Assembly (NCBI RefSeq): GCF_026210795.1
Contig: NC_089436.1
Coordinates: 2,294,001 to 2,358,000, forward strand
Length of the DNA stretch: 64,000 nt
Reading direction: 5' to 3'
DNA from: Rhizophagus irregularis
Lineage: Eukaryota > Glomeromycota > Glomeromycetes > Glomerales > Glomeraceae
Shown here: positions 13,014-64,000 of the stretch, one piece after another
How the letters are laid out: every line of letters begins with the position of its first letter
Position numbering within the stretch: position 1 is the stretch's first letter
Translations under genes and position numbers: made by a program
The notes under the pieces: model-generated
Told to the model about the DNA's origin: nothing
The model's database searches: none
The model's input: only the letters and a program-made list of their open reading frames with translations

Positions 13014-13740
13014 ATTACTTGAAGTACTTTTTGAAAAAAATGATTTAAGACTCACATTAGGAATTTTTTGAATGTCGCCAGCTCAACAGGACTTATATCA
13101 ACGATTTTATGATGTAGTTTTAAATAATAACACCTGTAAAACTAACAAATACAAAGAATTTAATGATCTTAAAACTCAATGTTCTATGGAAAGTTTCGAA
13201 ATGTAGCAAATGCTTTAGTAAAGAATGAACTTTTTCAACATATGTTTGGATTTTGCAATGTTTAAAAAAGGCGACAGATGAATCATTCCAAAATCATTTT
13301 GGATAGACTCCAAACCTGGTCTAATTAATGCTACAGCATTTTTATTGTTTATTTTATATATGCCAAAATATTATTAAACATCTCAAATCAACATTAGGTG
13401 AAGATTTTCTTTCATTTAGTAAAGCATTTTATTCTTGTAGAAATATGTTAAATGTTGAATTATTATAAAAATGGAAAGATATGGTAGTGACATTTTTGGC
13501 ATGTTATAATTATATGACTAAAACACTATATTCTAATAGGATTAGTTAGGCTAAATGCTATACACCATTTCAGTATAATGCCAGTATCAAAGTGTTGAAT
13601 GATTCAATGGCATTAAATCTTCAAATGTGAGTTGTGAGGATCTACACAACTCTTTCCCCCATATGGGCTAATCGGACGCATTAGCCAAATGTCACATTTA
13701 AAACAATGTGATATGATTATATGGTTTTGTGAACGCCAAT
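13014..13740 (+). pseudogene. MULE transposase, C-terminal half (FAR1/MULE family)
   Basis: The sequence opens with ATTACTTGAAGTACTTTTTG, which translates to the LLEVLF part of a MULE transposase. It continues with MSPAQQDLYQRFYDVVLN and NTCKTNKYKEF at 13074-13160. Further along come FWIDSKPGLINATAF at 13295-13335 (the second catalytic Asp region), blocks resembling HIWQNIIKHLKS and a QSVEXFNGI block near 13580-13610. Multiple stops (including TGA for a Trp just before MSPAQQ), frameshifts and a deletion make it dead. The matching N-terminal half is on the other strand at 32044-32893. Confidence 0.6.
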
Positions 13741-13769
13741 GATTTGATAAACTAGTAATACACAAACTT

Positions 13770-14449
13770 TTGTTTAACCAAAAAATGAACACGACGCAGC
13801 CTTCACATACGCCTACTAGTAAATTTCCTTGTCCATTATGTCAATTTTTAAATAATAAAAGTACTTTATATACAAAGAATAGGCTTTCTTTACATCAGCG
13901 AAAATTTCTGGAATTCACTCTTGTTACGAATAGAAAAAAAACTTTCATACCATAGATCGGGAGGTGGTAATAGAAAAATAATATTTGAACCCTTTAATGA
14001 AGAATTATTTGTTAGGATATTCTCTCAGGAAGAAAACTTTACATTTATTTCTTACTTGAATATTATATAAATGTGTTTTTACTGGAGAACTAGGATATAA
14101 ACGCTTGGGTTCTTTATTTGATTGTGAAGATTGGGGAGAAAAAAAGCATACAAGTGGCACTAAAGCATATGTATTTATGGAAGATAAAGAGAGGCAAAAA
14201 GAAGTTTCTTTTGTTTGGTCTGACTATGTAGTTATTAGAAACCGAGTGGGTAAAGAACCTTTAACTTTACATAGTTTAAAATTAGTAGTTTTTTTTAATG
14301 TTTTAACTGGTTATTTTGTGCAAAATCAAGATAATATGTTGAATTTTTTGGAGGAGTGTGAAGATTGTATAGTTGAAAAATTGGAAGGTAAATTTTTTTT
14401 TGAAAAGTTCATTATAAATTTACTTATAACTTCAATTCACACTCATTAA
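13770..14449 (+). pseudogene. C2H2-like companion gene, copy 1, degenerate
   Basis: This is a diverged copy of the gene at 61119-61677. FPCPLCQFLNNKSTLYTKN (about 13818-13875) corresponds to the C2H2 finger, but the second His is lost (HQRKFLEF). After a frameshift come EPFNEELFVRIF near 13990-14025 and the conserved block LGSLFDCEDWGEKK at 14107-14148, then GTKAYVFMEDKERQKE at 14157-14204. The C-terminal part (VSFVWSDYVVIRN and LKLVVFFNVLTGYF) is longer than in the second copy. It converges on the minus-strand gene ending at 14589, leaving only 140 bp between the two stops. The function is unknown. A DNA-binding partner of the convergent gene is a guess from the finger. Confidence 0.55.
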
Positions 14450-14588
14450 TTTATTATTTTATATAGGAAATTCTAATTTAGAAATATTCATTTAAAAAAT
14501 TATTATGTACATAGATTTTTTAGAAAATTGGTGTTTGTAAAAATTTAGAGAAAAATTGTTTAAGAAATATTAAAACTTTTAAAAAAAT

Positions 14589-17364
14589 TCATTCTTTTAG
14601 AACAATTGTTTTCTGTACAATAGATTTTGGTATATTGTTCATCAAAAAGTAAAGTTGCCGGTTTTCATATGTTAATATATTGTGAACAACAGAATTTGCT
14701 TTATTTCCACCTCCCATTGTTGTTGCACCAAAAAATACCCAAACCTATAAACCCATATTAAATTGTAAACGTATATAGTAAGTTGTAATAATTAACAATT
14801 AATTACTTACATGCATATGGTTTTTTTTCTCAAGACTGGAAGTAGAAAAATGTTTGAATTGTAAATTTTTACTCTTCAAAATACGAAAAAATTGAGGAAT
14901 ATAATGTGCAAATATATGCATGTAAGGAGTAATATCAGTTGGATTGAACATTCCTTTTTTTTTTTATTAGCACTATTTGATTTTCCAATAGTTGGCTCAC
15001 AAAATTTTAAGATCCAACTTTTAGCTGCTTGTTCAAATGAATCGATCTCTTCTTCAGTAATATGATCTTGACGTAAAAATAAATATAAACGTAAAAATTC
15101 ATGCCATAAAAATTCCATTTTCCTACCATGATCACCAGAAACAGATCTAGTTACTTCAAAATTCTTTAGTACATTTAATTTTTCAACGCCATTTAAAGTA
15201 GTCCAGTCGTATTTACCTTTTGTTTTTGATTCATAAAATTGAAAATGAGTTATTCCAATACGATGCATTTCTTGTTCAATTAAAGTTGATGTACTTTTTT
15301 TAAATTGGTTTATGTCCTCCATAAGTTGATAGAAAAAGCATCCAAGTAAAACATCAGTAATTCGTAACATCACATGCAACTCATCAGGAATCCAATTTCC
15401 AGTTTTAATCATAGGAAATAAGCATGGATTTGCATGTCCTAATAATAAAATTTAACCAAATAATATAATATACATTTTTGAAATGATATTATTATTTACC
15501 TTTATTATTTCCAGTAATACTCCAAGAATGATTCATATCAGCACGCAATTCTTTTGAACACTCACAATATAAACAAAAAAAATTGGAATTTGCAGCTTTA
15601 ATTCCATAATTAACGCCATAAATTTCCAATCTCCAGAAAAAAATAACTCAACCGGCCAAATAATATTCTCACAATCCATATACCCATCTTTTATTTCATC
15701 TAACTCATTAATAAATTGAGATACAATGTATAACAGGATACTTAAAGAAATTTAAACGTAAATATTTAATTAATATAATTAATCATGAACTCACCAATAT
15801 TGCTTACTTGGTTTTAAAACTTCATCTTTTTCATTTAATAAACATACCGTAAACATTACATGTGAGTATTGATGAGTTACAATATGTCCATCTGTATCCC
15901 CAGGAGTCAAAATAGATGAAGAACCTTTTTTCCATATAGGAACTAAGATATCTAGAAGGGCTTTAATAGATCAAAAAGAACACAATCCATCTTGATTATT
16001 ATTACCACTATTACTAGAAGAACCAAGATCTTCTATATTATCATTTTCTCTTTCTTTACGTTTTTTTGATTGATTTGAAGGTGATGAAGGGATTTTAATA
16101 ATATAATCATATATAGGGATTAGAGAATTCATAACTTCATTAATATAATGTTTTCGCCCTTCAATACGATATTCTCTTTCAATTCTTGGATCAACCATTG
16201 CAAGACGTCGATATCCATCACGTGAAATCAAGCACTCATCAATTGCTCTTAGTATAGCATCACAATGAACCATAAAATCCAAATTATTATGAGATCGAAA
16301 ATCAATAACTACTACTTCTCCACCAATTTCAAGTTCAATTAACCTTAATTGACTATTATTAATGTTATTATTTTTCAAAATAATGCTTGATTGAGTTTTA
16401 AAATCCTTAGCTAGTAAATTTAAACGTCTATTCTGCTGTGATGTAGAAATTTCGGTATATGGACGTTTCCTATTTATAATAGGAGTATTTGTAATATTTT
16501 CTCTTGCTTCATAAGCAAGGTATGTTAAAGCCAAACAATAAAACTCCTGAAACTTTTGAGTTTGCTTTCATTCCAATAATCTGATTTTATCAATAAAAAT
16601 AACAATAGTTAAAATTTTTTTTATTAAATATTGGACAAATTACAAAAATACAAAATCTAAAAAATCAAAGCTTCTAATTTCAGTTTAAAATAACAATCAC
16701 CTTATAAAAATCATTTGCCACACCTGAAGATGATCGAGTATTTGAAATAATTTTAGATACGTTGTTATTATCTTTCCATTCAATTGAATATTTGATTTTT
16801 CCATTAGGCAAATAATTAGATTCACAGATAATTTGAAATCCTCCCAAAATTGTCTCTACTTTATATGCATTTGGAATTTTATAGACAACAGAATTCTTTT
16901 TACCACGCTGTGTATACTTAACGTTTGAAGGATATTCCCCCAATGATAAAATGTTGTAACTTCTTTCATGTCGTTTTCCATTAACCTCATAATAAATTAT
17001 TGTAATAAAAGAACTAGTTGGATAGTTACAAATAAAAATAGGTTCGTTATAATTTGGTGATTCAAATTCCTGATCGCTAATCCCTAAAAATAAATAAATT
17101 GCATATAAATTCACATAATCGCAAATAATTACTAAATTAATCAAAATAATTAATAATATAATCTTTTGTCTAATATTTATTATTTAAGTTATCTTCTTCA
17201 TTATAACTTCATAACTTATTAAAATAAAATGCGTACAACTTTAATTCTTATATAATAAAATACTAATAGACTTATTATTTCGTTATCTAATATTATACAT
17301 AAATAATATAATAATAATATAATAGAAATACTACCTGTTCAAGCCGTTTTTGATTTTCTTCCAT
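14589..17364 (-). pseudogene. FYR-domain / putative DDE-like gene, copy 1, broken
   Basis: A long multi-exon gene. A possible first exon is 17364-17335 (MEENQKRLEQ, donor GTAGTA), though its phase does not join cleanly. The exon at 17085-16690 has a FYRN-like block (GEYPSNVKYTQRGKKNSVVY, GGFQIICESN). Near 16575-16530 a FYRC-like block reads NSKVSGVLLFGFN. Then come IELEIGGEVVVIDFRSHNNL, ISRDGYRRLA and EVMNSLIPI (16350-16110). Next are LLDILVPIW and VMFTVCLLNEK (15955-15835), then IIWPVELFFSGDWKFMALIM (about 15665-15610), WIPDELHVMLRITDVLLGCF (15400-15340), EFLWHEFLRLYLF and FCEPTIG. After a final intron come FFGATTMGGG and the stop at 14589. It carries TGA at 15971-15973, at least one frameshift in the FYRC region and a deletion removing the SGDGRNVGR motif seen in copy 2. 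Confidence 0.6.
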
Positions 17365-17369
17365 ATTCA

Positions 17370-17734
17370 AACTTAAGTGCTCATATTAAAGGTCGGAAAT
17401 TTTGCAATTTTGCTTTTACTACACATTAAAATAACTTTTATTTAGTATAAAGTTTGCTGTCACGTGTACCTAAAACCAATTCCCAACCAATTCCCGCCTC
17501 AATAATTGATATTAGAGAGAGTCTAAATCTTCACGTTCTAATTTGCCAATCATAATTTATTTGTTATTTTGTTACACAAAATTACATATATACTTCTATA
17601 ATATCACATGTTTATTACTTAATGAAATACGTCAAATCTGCCCATATGCAATTTTTGAAAATACTAATAAATTTTCTTGAAATTTTTGCTTGAAAATTTC
17701 TAAGTGCTCGTTAAATAAATTAATATTTCCCTAG
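17370..17734. other. Spacer between the FYR/DDE-like gene and LINE-2
   Basis: No ORF is supported. It would hold the upstream region of the minus-strand gene and the 5' leader of LINE-2. The LINE-2 5' end and its target duplication could not be located. Confidence 0.4.
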
Positions 17735-46520: not shown

Positions 46521-47924
46521 AATTTGAATAAATATAGATCTTTAACATTAAATATTTGAATATATTGTAATATAATACATTAATTAAAGTTGTAAAATTT
46601 AACTTAAATTTTAAATAAAGAATTACGTTAGTATAAATAATTACACCAATATAAATCAATTACGTTAGTAAAATTCAATTAGTATAATCTGATAAATCAT
46701 TTCAGTTAGCCAATTGAAAAGTTTTCTTAAAAAATAAAATTTCAGGTCCATTAGAAAATATATAAAAAAAAAATTGGTTTTACTGCCTTTACATCTTTGA
46801 TAATTTATATTAAAATTAAAAATTGTTTTTCGTTATTTAATTATTATTTAAATTATAAAAAAAAGGAGTTTTTACTGTGATCTGCTATATTTTACCAAAT
46901 ATATATAATAAGATGGATTATCAGATTCAAAATCTCTTTTTTATTTTAATATCATACAAAAATAAAATGTCTCAAAAAAACAATAATGAAGAATTTGAAT
47001 TTAATTATCATTTAAAACGAACTCGTTATATTAATATTACAGATGAAGAGGAAGAGCCTGAAGAAATACTTGATAATGAGGAAATCAGATTAGAAAACTA
47101 TCAAGAAGGAGGGTCTTACTTGAAAATAAAGATGATACTTCAAGTACCTTAAGTACATTAGACGAAAAGGATGAAAAAGGAAGCGTAGTATGAAAACATT
47201 TTGACAAATTTGTAGATAATAAAGGTACTTCATAGGCAAAATGTCGATATTGTGAGTAAGAAATGAATAAAGTTTTTAAAATATGAGATATACAAAATAA
47301 AGTCAAAATCACTGAAAAAAATATTTTTAAATTTGATAATTTGATAGAAATGGTAAATGTAATATAGACAGTGGTTCAACAGGAAACTTATTCCGTCATC
47401 TTAATAAATTACATCTGAATAAAGTTAATCCTTCTATTGCGCAACAAGCAGAAATTATAAAGAATTTTAAAAATTGTGAGTATAAATTTTTTATGATTTT
47501 TTAAGAGTTATGTTAGAAAAAAAATTTTTCAATTTTACTAAAAACAAAATATTAATTTAATAAATTATAAATTTATTTATAGAAATTTTCTAATGAACTT
47601 TTTTGTGCAAAGCTTGTCGAATGGATTGTTACAGATGATCAGCCATTTACAGTTGTTGAATTACCTGAATTTTGCTATGTAATACAAATTTGTAATGCAG
47701 AAGTACAAATTTTAACGGCGGATACTATCAAAAGTGATACATATGGGCCGATTCTTGGAATCTAATTTTTTACACAAAAATAATTTTATTAAAGCAAATA
47801 TAAATTATCATTTATATAAGAATAATAAATTTATACTAGATAATGCAAAAAAAACTAATTAATTATATAATTTTTAATTTTTTTTTAATATAAGATATCA
47901 TTAAAATTTAAAAGATCAAATATA

Positions 47925-48600
47925 ACTCTCATGACAAAATTATTGATAATTCTTCGTAGAAATAAGCTATACAAATAAATTTACATTCATTTGAAAGAGA
48001 AAATCGAGATCTATCTAATGAATTTAAAATCAAGTGAATTGAATCACTAGTTGTTCAGTAATCACGTTCAGTATATTTATTGAATTTTATCTAAATTTGA
48101 TCGTTAATTACTTCACATGTAGTGATTCAATTTGAATGATCTTTGCTCCCTAAGGTGATGCCAACTTTTATCTTTAAAATAAATTTAAAATAATTCGTTT
48201 AATATATGTAGATGTTTAGGAATCATCAATTATATTATTAATATAAAATTTTATAAGTTTGATAAAATCTGATATAAAAAAATTTATTAAATACCTGTAG
48301 ATGCAAGCTACACGAATGAAATTATATTCATTTGAAAGAGAAAATTGAGGTCTATCTAATAAGCCTAAAATCGAATGAATTGAATCACTGGATTGTGAAT
48401 AATTACGTCTAATATATTTATTTTTAATTTTTAAATTTGATTTGACTTTGATCGTTAATTACGCCTCATCCAGTGATCCAATTTTCCTGATCTTTGATTC
48501 TTACGATAGAGCAAATTCTCAGCTTTCAAATGAATGTAAAATGATGACGTTAGCATATCTCCAGGAATAATAATGCACGATTTTGTCACCTGCATAAAGT
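47925..48600. repeat. Repeat cluster inserted in the hAT gene
   Basis: ACATTCATTTGAAAGAGAAAAT at about 47981 and ATATTCATTTGAAAGAGAAAAT at about 48332 head two direct units, each followed by a TCTATCTAATRARY stretch and a GAATTGAATCACT word. CTTTCAAATGAATGTAAAAT at 48519 is the inverted form. Together they look like a composite inverted-repeat element between two coding parts of the hAT transposase. The ends are not resolved. Confidence 0.5.
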
Positions 48601-49340
48601 CCGATCTGAAAATTTTATTTCTTACCAAAAAATGCTTTCATAAGAGAATCCCAAATTCTTTTACTTTATTTAAAAGATTTTATTTGCCATTTAAGGATTT
48701 TAATAGAATAAATCTAATAAAATAATTTTAAAAGATAAAAAACAAATATATAATTAGTTATTTTGAAAAAAAAGAATATCTTATTATTCATTTTACAACT
48801 ATTTTACATCATAATTATTTTTTATTTGCATGTATTTTTTACAAAGAAAAACAATAAATTAAAGCTAAAAATTAAGAAAAAATATGTCTTATCTATGTAT
48901 ATAAAATATTAAGTTTTTTCTTTTACTTACCACTTAAAAATAACTGCTATATTTGCTTATAAACTTTTTTGTCATATTTAATAAAAGTGAATAGAAAAAT
49001 GATGGAAAAGTGATGGGCAGTGATGGGGAAAAAGAAGTGGTTATTACCGTTATTTTTGAATATTGATTAAAAAAATTTTTTTTATTTTTTATTAAATCTG
49101 AGTTACGTAAATATGTAACACATATTTAATTTAGATTTGTGTAATGTTAATCTTACTAAAATATTAAATTTTTATAAAAATCTTAATTTAGACTAATTCC
49201 AAAAATCGGCACATATGATCTTAAAACTGTATAAAAGTTACCATAGTATTAATATACAAAATATATTACAGGTTAGTAAATAATTTATGTTTAAAGTTAA
49301 AATTAATATTTTTTAAATAAAATTAACCTATTTTTAATTA
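48601..49340. other. AT-rich stretch inside the hAT element
   Basis: No coding blocks of the transposase are recognised here. It may be intron plus inserted sequence. Confidence 0.4.
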
Positions 49341-50255
49341 AAGAATACTCCAGGAAAGATAAGCTTCGCTTTGGACGTATGGACTTCACCAAATGTTATT
49401 GGATTTTTTGACATAACGTGTCATTATATTGACGCTGATTAGAATATTAAAGATATTCTTGTCGATTTTGTAAATCTTTCAGGTTCTCATTTGGGCAAAA
49501 ATATGGCAAATATGTTCGTAATATGCCTTAAGGAAAAAAAAATATTAACTAAGGTTTGTACTTTGTAAACAAATTAATTTTTAATTTTTTATATATTAAT
49601 AAAAGTCAGTAAACATAATAAATCTATTTATCATTAGATTCTTGCAATTGCAACAGATAATGCGGCCAATAATAATACTTTTTTAAAATCACTTGAACAA
49701 ACTTGTGTTGAAAATTATATTGCTTTTCATCATAAAGAAAATCATGTTAGGTGTATTGCGCATATCATGAATCTTACAGTTCAGGAGATATTAAAACACA
49801 TTAGAGCTGAAGAAGCATAAGATAAGAATATAATTTTAGAAGAACTTTTAGAAAAAAATAACAAAACAAATGACATAATCCCTAAGGTAAATTAAATTAT
49901 GATTAAAAATAATTTATATAAAAAATTTAAAATAATTATTAGTTGAGAAAACTTATAGTTAAAATTCGGGCTTCACTACAGCGTCGAGACAGATTTTCAT
50001 GCCAATGTGATTTTTATCCAACTGTTAAAGATTTAAATCTTATATTGGACGTCAAGACTCACTGGAATTCTACATATTTAATGATAGAACGTGCTTTTCA
50101 ACTTCAAAAAATAAGTAAAATTTTTAATCATTAATAAATACTAATAAAATAGTAATAAATTATTGAATTTTATTTAATTTTATAACCTCTTGATGAAACA
50201 ATTAGAATTGAACCTGAATTGGAAGGATTTTCAATTTCCTCAAATGAATGGCAAA

Positions 50256-60429: not shown

Positions 60430-61118
60430 ATTTAAATTTTAAATAATTTATTTTTCAAAAATAAAGAATTTTTTATAAAAAAAATTAGAAACAACTAATG
60501 ACAAATTTAGTTATGTAAATTTTATTTGCTATTAAAATTCATACAAAGTCTGAAAATTAATGTTTTCAAAAATCTAAAAATTAACTAAAACCCGAAAATG
60601 AGCTGAATTTTAATAATAATTAGAAAATTAAATTGTTTTAATGATATCATGACAACCAGTGATTAGAATTTAATGTTTTGTAGCTTGTTAGATCCATCTC
60701 ATCAAGACGATCATTTTGATAGTAATTTCATAAATTTTTACATCAAATTGATTGAGAAATTGCATTTTGAAAATTTCTATTTATTATATAGATTATAACC
60801 ATATAATTGCAAGTATAAATTTAGCCATAACTTCTTAATTACCTAAAATTATGAATGATTACTTCAGCCATTAATTTTAAATCAGTTAAACCATATGGAC
60901 GGATTCGACTCAACAGCATCACCCCCGTAACAAATAAAATGCGATCACACCCCATCAGAATCATATCACATTATATGTAAGATTTGATTGGTTTTGAAAA
61001 CAATTATATATTACTTGAATTAGAAATTGCGTTTTGTGCGTCAGTTTTGTTAAAAATTAAAAATGCGAAAATGAATTTTTTTACTTTATACGTACGTTTT
61101 ATATAATTTTGTTTTACG
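60430..61118. other. AT-rich intergenic region with one module-like word
   Basis: It separates the divergently transcribed split gene and C2H2 companion gene. A CAGTGATTAGAATTTAATG stretch at 60657-60675 with TTAGATCCATCTCATCAAGA after it resembles the foldback module. Otherwise nothing is recognised. Confidence 0.5.
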
Positions 61119-61677
61119 ATGCCATATACTTGTTTTCTTTGTTCTGAAAATACTCCTAAAACTTTCTCATCTAAAAACTCACTTTTTATTCATGAAAGAA
61201 CTGTTCACCCAAATAATAAAATAATACCTCACTCGCGCAGGTTAACTTCTCCATCTTTATACGATATTCACCACTTTAAACATTCTTTTATAATGCAGTT
61301 AAAGGCACGCTTACAATTTCATAGAAGTGAACCTCGAGTAAAAACTTTAAAAATGGGGCCCTTTTCTGAAGGACTTTTTATTATTTTATTCTACAATGAA
61401 CCAACTTTTCAATATTCTCCAGCAAAAAGAATGTATACTTGTAAGTTTGAAGGTGGTCAAGGATATGAACAATTAGGAATTCTTTTTGATAATAAAAACT
61501 GGGGTAGTAAAAAGCGGCGAACAGGGGACATGTGCATATGTTTTAATGCAGAACGCGCAAGAAACTTATGATGTTACTTTCTGTCGTGTGTACAAAGATT
61601 CAAATATGCAGTTACGTTGTGGTTCTATGCGTTTTGAATTTAATGTTGATGTAAGAGATTTTGTAGAAGGTAATTGA
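61119..61677 (+). pseudogene. C2H2-like companion gene, copy 2, one frameshift
   Basis: It starts MPYTCFLCSENTPKTFSSKN with a C2H2 pattern (CFLC, then HERTVH). Then come YDIHHFKHSFIMQLKARLQF, FSEGLFIILFYNEPTFQYSP, YTCKFEGGQGYEQLGILFDN and NWGSKKRR. At about 61524-61527 a run of four G (three expected) shifts the frame. The continuation TCAYVLMQNAQETYDVTF, CRVYKDSNMQLRCGSMRFEF, NVDVRDFVEGN ends at TGA 61675-61677. It aligns with the copy at 13770-14449 through LG.LFD..WG.KK and GT.AYV. It converges on the minus-strand gene at 61889-64000. The role is unknown; it may be a sequence-specific DNA-binding protein working with that gene. Confidence 0.6.
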
Positions 61678-61888: not shown

Positions 61889-64000
61889 TTAGGTTTTAAT
61901 GTCCATTGTTTTTCGTGTATATTTAATTGGAGTATTATGTATCTGATAGAACAATTATCGGTTTTCATAATATAGAATATCATGAATTACAGGTTTTTTT
62001 GATTTTCCTCCACCCATTGTTGTTCCTCCAAAAAATAGCCGTACCTAAAACAAGAATATGTTAATAAATTATTTAATCAAAAAATGCTAAATAAAATATT
62101 ACAAATTGTGAATTTAATTAGTTTAAATGTATTTACCTGTTGATGATTTTTCTTTTCTATACTTGATGTTGAAAAATGCCGCAATACCATTCCTTTTTGT
62201 TTTAGATATCGCATAAATTGAGGTACATGTTGAGCAAGCACATGCATATAAGGTGTAACGTCTGTGCGCAAATACATTCCTTCTTGTTGATTAATACTAT
62301 TCAGATCACCAATAGTAGGACGACAAAAATCACGAATCCATTGTTTTGCATCAACTTCAAATTGATTGATTTTCTCATCTGTTATAGACTTTTGACGCAT
62401 AATTTTATAAAGATTATAAAATTTACGCCAAAGGTATTCAATATCTTGCCCTCTTGCAGCTTTTCGTCCTTCAAAAAGATGTTTAATCTGAAATTCTTTC
62501 AATATTTTTTCCTTATCGTGCACCCTATGCGTTATGTCCATTCCCATTTTCCATTTTTCGTAGTAGGAGAATAAAACTCAAAATGAATATGTAATCTTTT
62601 CATTTCTGCAATTATCAATGGTTGTGTGTTATTTGCAAAATCTTTTTGTTTAACAAGTTCATAAAATAGACATTGAAAAAGCACATCAGAAATTCGCAAC
62701 ATAAGATGCAATTCATCTGTGATCCAATTATTTTGATCAATTTCTTGAAAAAGCATTGTATTTTTACATCCTATAACAAATATTAATTTTTTTAATTTTT
62801 AATTTAATATTTTAAATAAAAAATACAATAAAATCAAATATATACCACGTGTATTTTTTGAGTTTAACCATACTTTATCCATATCATATCTCTCATCTTT
62901 ATGATAATTACAATATAAACAGAAGTAATTGGATGTTGCCGCATTAATTCCTAAAACTAATGCTACGAATTTCCAATCACCTGAAAAAAAAAGTTCAATC
63001 GGCCAAATTGTATTATTTGAATCTTTATATCCATTTATCTTTAATTGTTCAAGTTCTTGTGAAAATTTGGCCGATACAATTGATAAAGAATTATAAGATT
63101 CCTTTCCTATATATAAACAAATACTATGTACAACAATATTATAAATAAATCATGTATAATAATTAAAATTGACAATATATACATAATACCTGTATTGATG
63201 AGCAGGATTCAGAACGCCCTCTTTTTCATTAAGAATACACATAGTAAGCATCACATGCTTTTGCTTTCGCCCTACATTTCTCCCATCTCCACTCAATTTT
63301 ATATTAATCTTATCTCCAACTTTTAAAATAGGAGGTGTTGAAGTTGTTAAAATAGGAACTATAATATCTAATAGAGATATAATAGATCGGTATGCACCAT
63401 TGCCCACATCATCATCATTAAGTTCTATTCCACTAATATCTTGTTGATTTTCATTATCATTATCATCATCAAGATTAACACTTTGCAAATTAAATGGTTT
63501 AATTGGAATAAGGGAATTCATTATTTTTGTGATTTCATTTCGGCGTTTTTCAATTACATGTTCTCTTATTAAATTTGGAACAGCTTTAGCTAATCTGCGA
63601 TAACTATTACGCGAAATTAATATTTCATCACAAGCACGGATAATTGAATCTATGTGTTGTGTAAAATCAGTTACATTGTCAGGATGGAAATGTAACTCTA
63701 CAATTTCACCATTAATTTTAAGAACTATAGCTTCAATAGTTGCAATAATTTCTTCAGATGGTGAAGTAAATTTATTTTTTTTGAGAATTGACATAGTTTG
63801 TGTTGCAATTTCCTTTCCAACCATTGAAATGCGTTTATTTTTTTGTGATTGTGATGTAAGTTCAGTAAAATATCATTTGCGATTAGCAGGTGTAATAGAT
63901 TGTTGTGGCTGACAAGCAATAATTTTGCGAATTTGATGTAAAAAACCTATATCTAAACCAAAAAGGGTTGTACCAGAAACTCGTGAATTGGGTTTATTAC
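61889..64000 (-). pseudogene. FYR-domain / putative DDE-like gene, copy 2 (runs off the window)
   Basis: The better-preserved copy; its N-terminus lies beyond 64000. From the window end: NSRVSGTTLFGLDIGFLHQI (FYRC-like), then one TGA at 63873-63875, then IEAIVLKINGEIVELHFHPD, ISRNSYRRLA and IMNSLIPI. An acidic linker follows, then KINIKLSGDGRNVGRKQKHV (about 63312-63253). Intron 63107-63189. Next, NNTIWPIELFFSGDWKFVAL and YFCLYCNYHKDER. Intron 62771-62845. Then NWITDELHLMLRISDVLF, and across a frameshift RKAARGQDIEYLWRKFYNLY, RDFCRPTIGDLNS, TPYMHVLAQHVPQFM and FSTSSIEKKNHQQ. Intron 62045-62136. Then RLFFGGTTMGGGKSKK. TAA at 61955-61957 replaces a Gln present in copy 1. Conserved acidic residues in SGDGR, SGDWK, TDELH and SIEKK suggest an RNase-H-fold DDE enzyme. 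Confidence 0.6.

Follow-up and report, generated by a model that had tools for sequence, protein, structure and literature searches.

RAG1 is the enzyme that rearranges antibody genes. Among transposons, the RAGL elements consist of two convergent genes, the partner being the kelch protein RAG2L, and both RAGL and Transib make target duplications of 5 bp (PMC7204232, in the passages on these elements). Kojima groups Transib with CACTA, Mirage, Chapaev, Plavaka, ESTA and Lanisha in the CMCT clade; the sections of PMC12730594 that define this clade describe C(2)C and H(3-4)H motifs between the second D and the E, ends that are mostly 5'-CA..TG-3', and target duplications of 2-5 bp. In Rhizophagus irregularis, two-thirds of the repeats had been unclassified, and a curated repeat library names Transib, CMC and Plavaka families (PMC11075540, in its passages on repeats).

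Here we describe a family of DNA transposons from R. irregularis with a DDE transposase related to RAG1 and CACTA, CATAT ends, two convergent genes and a one-base target duplication. We put the probability of this reading at about 0.85. Two of the copies lie in the stretch of DNA that was analysed, 64,000 nucleotides that we call the window (G000:C8:2294001-2358000); the searched assembly comprises 146.7 Mb in 32 contigs. This is a real, multi-copy family of DDE transposons and probably a new lineage.

A preliminary description of the window reported two diverged copies of one intron-bearing gene, at 61889-64000 and 14589-17364. Both genes were found, on the minus strand, and their GT..AG junctions can be read; the spans are real but are parts of complete elements. 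Copy 1 occupies 60892-64930 (4039 bp, both ends found, the window stopping at 64000) and copy 2 occupies 13660-17648 (3989 bp, C on both flanks); both elements, to which no strand is assigned, are of the autonomous type and decayed. The left end of copy 1, CATATGGACGG, starts at 60892 and the right end, GCCCATATG, was read in the extracted locus L020, with C as the flanking base on both sides; 15 of the first 30 bases of the left inverted end (60892-60911, plus strand) pair with the right end.

Junctions and frames place the copy-1 transposase gene at 64007-63190, 63123-62846, 62770-62137 and 62044-61955 (minus strand), while its first, FYR-like exon is past the window end and stops at 64074. 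The gene of copy 2 is broken and covers 14589-17084 (minus strand) in five coding blocks, at about 17084-16701, 16581-15794, 15727-15495, 15438-14810 and 14744-14589, some of these limits being approximate. Decay has left copy 1 with a frameshift, an in-frame stop and, near the C-terminus, a premature stop, and copy 2 with frameshifts, an in-frame stop and the loss of one zinc-ligand His. At E 10, Pfam gave neither a transposase nor a FYR family for the conceptual proteins of the two copies, and the composite copy-1 protein had no match in the PDB at E 1.

What kind of enzyme do these genes encode? The preliminary description had singled out several short motifs with acidic residues. FFSGDWKF is present at 62967-62990 and 15620-15643 and FCLYC at 62910-62924 and 15564-15578; DELHLMLR lies within 62694-62720 and SSIEKKNH at 62143-62166, and the corresponding sequences of copy 2 read DELHVMLR and SSLEKKNH. 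SGDGRNVGR, also offered as an invariant context, holds for copy 1 (63267-63293), but copy 2 reads GDTDGHIV and keeps the Asp alone.

We aligned 18 copies, 14 with long frames and four assembled by hand, one of these from the exons of two related copies. In the numbering of L009, residues D227, D308, C327, C330, H519, H524 and E546 are invariant in all 18, the acidic residues picked out earlier among them. By this alignment SGDGRNVGR of copy 1 would contain the first catalytic Asp. The segment from FFSGDWKF to FCLYC (62910-62990, minus strand) would supply the second Asp and a CxxC pair of zinc ligands, spaced as in RAG1, and that from PYMHVLAQH to SSIEKKNH (62143-62253, minus strand) the HxxxxH ligands and the catalytic Glu. 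All 18 copies have 19 residues from the second Asp to the first Cys; the step from one His to the other is 5, and the Glu follows the second His by 22 residues in 14 rows and by 24 in four. The corresponding steps in mouse RAG1 are 19 (D708-C727), 5 (H937-H942) and 20 (H942-E962), these being the residues that we take to have the matching roles.

Profile comparisons point the same way. Searched against the PDB at E 10, the 18-copy profile returned 14 sequences, 13 of them RAG1 or amphioxus RAG1L. The best was 3jbw (E 0.0032), and the best single stretch was weak (i-Evalue 0.042). D708, C727, C730, H937 and H942 are in register in the five printed alignments; the RAG1 entries are related to one another, so these hits are not independent. 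With a five-row profile RAG1L was the top hit (E 0.2), and the next four sequences belonged to two unrelated proteins. With hhalign, the family scored 37.5 against mouse RAG1 (probability 30), and 100 shuffles gave at most 24.6; in a forced global alignment E546 pairs with E962, but D227 does not pair with D600. One CACTA protein of the same genome scored 40.5 (probability 33; 100 shuffles at most 27.0), in an alignment that covers the first Asp, the second Asp and the CxxC. A second CACTA of the same genome (23.5) and Plavaka (18.5) gave no signal and were rejected as close relatives; mariner scored 13.4. RAG1 itself had no signal in the same test against the first CACTA (15.0), the second (16.3) or Plavaka (13.8).

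No Pfam transposase family, Transposase_21 included, matched any of the 18 copies at E 1. The order D, D, CxxC, HxxxxH, E, which is that of RAG1, together with the profile matches, places the family within or close to the CACTA-Transib-RAG1 clade, and the transposase appears to be a DDE enzyme distantly related to RAG1, with catalysis presumed from these residues. A search of the open-licence literature for a RAG1 transposon in Glomeromycota returned nothing.

The transposase is encoded many times over. A 62-residue piece around FFSGDWKF and the second Asp matches the genome at 127 places or more among 133 candidates scored, a copy number far above chance, and many of the matches lie in single open frames of 300-812 codons. 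We cut out the loci around chosen matches, 16 and then 20 more. Within the best-matching sets the loci are 95-99% identical over 3.5-3.9 kb, the ends are sharp and the flanks differ. The exception is L013/L014, whose sequences match past the element (85% and 81%), so this pair could be a segmental duplication. In the 24 complete copies the autonomous element is 3623-4197 bp long, with imperfect inverted ends of about 20 bp, 5'-CATAT..ATATG-3', in which the first 30 bases of left and right form 13 to 24 pairs; all 24 have CA..TG ends. The earlier proposal of a dispersed DDE-type transposase gene, with element ends shared across copies, is thus borne out by the sharp-ended units, the number of matches, the invariant acidic residues, the common CATAT..ATATG ends and the one-base duplications described below. 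Read from its sequence, the family has been mobile recently.

These ends are common to two lineages. One is rich in introns and includes the window copies, L015-L018, L034 and L039; the other has long open frames. The transposases of the two are 31-37% identical to the reference row. A Tc1/mariner-like transposase frame, identified by eye, lies beside or within the L036 copy (L036:3334-4401). Collections of viral and prokaryotic contigs held no relatives of the family; since they cover viruses and prokaryotes, this says nothing about fungi or animals.

How does the element join its target? We examined the flanks of 38 copies, placing the ends with the flanking base disregarded. Both ends could be placed in 24 copies; the other 14, in which one or both ends were not found, were left out (L007, L013, L014, L019, L025, L027, L030, L031, L032, L035, L036, L037, L038 and L040). 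L027 has equal flanking bases but a weak second end and was not counted. In 24 of 24 copies, from both lineages, the element is flanked by the same base on its left and on its right. The match extends to two bases in 1 of 24, and at other offsets 2-13 of 24 agree. The duplicated base is A in nine copies, T in eight, C in four and G in three, with no target preference evident. We considered CATATG as a duplicated palindromic target and rejected it, since the left end is often CATATC or CATATT. Longer duplications were likewise rejected, two bases agreeing in just 1 of 24 autonomous copies and 1 of the 21 non-autonomous copies described below.

To look for empty sites, we fused the two flanks around one copy of the duplicated base and ran the result against the genome. 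They were found for L008, L017, L018, L011, L012, L024, L026 and L028. One site per copy was aligned, with identities from 116/122 to 121/121, and the junction base is single in 8 of 8. The sites of L028 and L024 have a one-base gap in the right flank, 6 and 17 bases past the junction, and none at the junction itself. For L008 there are at least 35 exact matches (121/121) and two at 99%; its host is a high-copy repeat, identical over 121 bp at at least 35 places, for example G000:C32:763907-764027. These empty sites belong to further copies of the host repeat and did not arise by excision. A usable site was absent for 16 of the 24 flank pairs among the best 40 candidates scored per search, and the matches of L033, which lie in a tandem repeat with gaps, were excluded.

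The same observations bear on whether the units are a transposon at all. A family of host genes multiplied by segmental duplication could have introns and two genes per unit, as these do, and the alike flanks of L013/L014 would suit it. The sharp inverted ends, the differing flanks in the other sets and the one-base duplications refute it for all 24 complete copies, eight of which have empty sites as further evidence against it; we give this explanation almost no weight.

The window also holds a third element, which is non-coding. It was found by scanning with an end matrix and covers 1478 bp at 47740-49217 (no strand assigned), with A on both flanks. Its G+C content is 21%, no frame exceeds 80 codons, and its ends are of the same kind as those of the autonomous elements. 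Among the best 40 of 310 candidate matches that were scored, 39 are full-length at 97-100% identity, the window copy included, and two other copies equal the window copy's own bit score. Its 22-base end occurs 299 times with at most one mismatch; the reversed control occurs 0 times. Internal stretches at about 193-309 and 733-849 of this non-autonomous family are inverted with respect to each other and about 71-73% alike.

We fetched the flanks of 20 other full-length copies, making 21 with that of the window. A one-base duplication is found in 21 of 21 and two-base agreement in 1 of 21, and there is no repeat among the 21 left flanks. The window copy splits a decayed hAT-like frame (47410-47739 and 49218-49800) that is continuous across the insertion only when exactly one base is removed (0, 1 and 2 were tried). 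Upstream in this hAT-like frame is a weak match to the Hermes DNA-binding domain (E 0.018, below cut-off). The target duplication is therefore one base pair in 45 of 45 copies, autonomous and non-autonomous. The non-autonomous family bears the marks of recent movement, and, to judge from their ends, the short non-coding elements appear to be mobilised in trans by the RAG1-like transposase.

The autonomous element has a second gene, absent from the preliminary description although it is in both window copies; that description also lacked the element ends, the one-base duplication, the third element and the relationship to RAG1 and CACTA. The second gene is on the strand opposite to the transposase gene, between this and the left end, so that the element consists of two convergent genes, a C2H2 zinc-finger companion and the transposase. 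The companion protein has about 150-250 residues, with one C2H2 finger and a conserved domain. In copy 1 the gene is at 61119-61677 (plus strand; sequence, alignment and Pfam scan), its frame broken and the first frame intact to 61571; in copy 2 it is broken and was read from the sequence at 13788-14446 (plus strand, limits approximate). Thirteen companion proteins, the first frame of copy 1 included, are 20-66% identical to the first row of their alignment, with two Cys and one His invariant. In a Pfam scan of eight, seven matched a C2H2-type family at E 0.09 or lower, all below the curated cut-offs, and one was blank; no kelch match was found among the eight.

At the other end of the element, the transposase begins with the FYR-like region, encoded in copy 2 by an exon at 16701-17084 (minus strand). 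The preliminary description assigned a FYRN-like run, GEYPSNVKYTQRGKKNSVVY, to the 62-64 kb copy. It is actually in the 14-17 kb copy, at 16881-16940; the N-terminal exon of the former sits past the window end. We compared 15 N-terminal regions by hhalign with FYR domains of TBRG1, of KMT2D and of the FYR genes of the same genome, in two versions of this reference profile. The probabilities were 79 and 73 and the P values 1.6e-5 and 3.2e-5. The local score was 34.9; in 200 column shuffles no score exceeded 24.2 and no probability 11.8. The alignment covers 79-80 columns, from the Y.C.I strand to SG..LFGL. In global mode the FYRN core falls on YKIPNAYKVET, beginning where GEYPSNVKYTQRGKKNSVVY ends, so the earlier placement was slightly off.

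The sequence searches were blank: none of the 15 regions matched FYRN or FYRC in Pfam, the families proposed earlier, or a PDB sequence, even at E 10. An unrelated beta-rich domain with a chance SG..LFGL would account for these blanks, for the global-mode probability of just 41 and for the low-confidence model of the copy-2 exon folded alone (pLDDT 46). Moreover, FYR was chosen for comparison because the earlier description had proposed it. A chance resemblance sits poorly with local probabilities and P values that hold over 79-80 columns and exceed 200 shuffles, and we consider an unrelated domain rather unlikely. Homology to the FYR domain is not settled, but the profile comparison makes it quite probable. 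Pfam FYRN scores above its cut-off at three other places in the genome (L001-L003), each with a FYRC-like sequence in the same locus; these look like ordinary host FYR genes. The N-terminal profile match is what the family has in common with chromatin proteins such as TBRG1 and KMT2D. Unlike theirs, its FYR-like region is below Pfam detection and joined to a transposase core, and Pfam scans of the element proteins found no SET, PHD or JmjC domain. A role of the region in chromatin targeting is a guess; a search of the open-licence literature found nothing relevant on a FYR domain in a transposon.

Both genes are under purifying selection. For the transposase, dN/dS is 0.14-0.25 in the six of nine pairs with dS of at least 0.1; the three remaining pairs (0.41, 0.52 and 1.14) have diverged too little, with dS below 0.01. 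Values for the companion are 0.15-0.28 in five pairs, of which one has a dS of 0.04, and for the FYR-like exon 0.16-0.32 in five pairs. By these ratios, transposase, companion and FYR-like region have all been kept by selection between subfamilies.

These features suggest a mechanism. The transposase would cut at CATAT..ATATG and attach one 3' end to each target strand, at positions one base pair apart, and repair of this one-bp stagger would leave the 1-bp duplication. The zinc-finger companion probably aids end recognition or assembly of the complex, and movement would be by cut-and-paste rather than copying. How long a target duplication is reflects the geometry of the strand-transfer complex; a single base pair would demand a target geometry undescribed for RAG1, Transib and CACTA in the literature examined, and an enzyme with this stagger would directly test how DDE transposases set it. 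Because the family aligns with RAG1 and with one CACTA, which have no signal with each other, it may help to find the root of the lineage that gave rise to V(D)J recombination. If the FYR domain is real, its exon being under constraint, the family would be a testable case of a transposase with a built-in chromatin domain. RAG2 carries a PHD finger. A bolder reading makes the family a new RAG1-related superfamily that combines the one-bp stagger with a captured FYR domain, steering it to chromatin with the H3K4-methylation machinery as the counterpart of that finger; we think this improbable. A practical use of the ends together with the one-base rule is the annotation of repeats in a genome where these are largely unclassified.

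How different, then, is the family from what has been described? It could be a divergent branch of a named CMCT superfamily, CACTA/EnSpm or Transib, in which the one-base duplication is a mere variant, and such a branch may already be listed in Repbase or in the curated library for Rhizophagus, as Transib or unknown. The C(2)C and H(3-4)H motifs, found in 18 of 18 copies, and the CA..TG ends, found in 24 of 24, are features of the clade (PMC12730594, defining sections). The alignment with one CACTA protein fits a branch of this kind, as does Transib being reported from R. irregularis (PMC11075540, passages on repeats), and duplication length can differ among lineages, as in hAT (5-8 bp in the published passages). 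Against it, the 2-5 bp reported for the clade compares with a single base in all 45 copies here (24 of 24 and 21 of 21), two lineages whose transposases are 31-37% identical to the reference row both make the one-base duplication, and no Pfam transposase matches. We find such a branch doubtful and favour a separate lineage. In the open-licence literature, nothing relevant was found on a one-base target duplication, although an earlier description is possible.

The family resembles CACTA/EnSpm in the C(2)C and H(4)H between the second D and the E, in its CA..TG ends and in the profile alignment with one CACTA protein of the same genome. It differs in its one-base rather than 2-5 bp duplication, in having no match to Pfam Transposase_21, and in giving no signal with the second CACTA. 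From Transib and RAGL it is distinguished by a one-base instead of a 5-bp duplication and by ends that read CATAT.. rather than heptamer-like CAC.., and apparently also from RAGL by its partner, a C2H2 protein with no kelch match in the Pfam scan. With RAG1, RAGL and Transib it shares the order D, CxxC, HxxxxH, E at near-identical spacing and ends that start with CA, and with RAGL the arrangement of two convergent genes between inverted ends.
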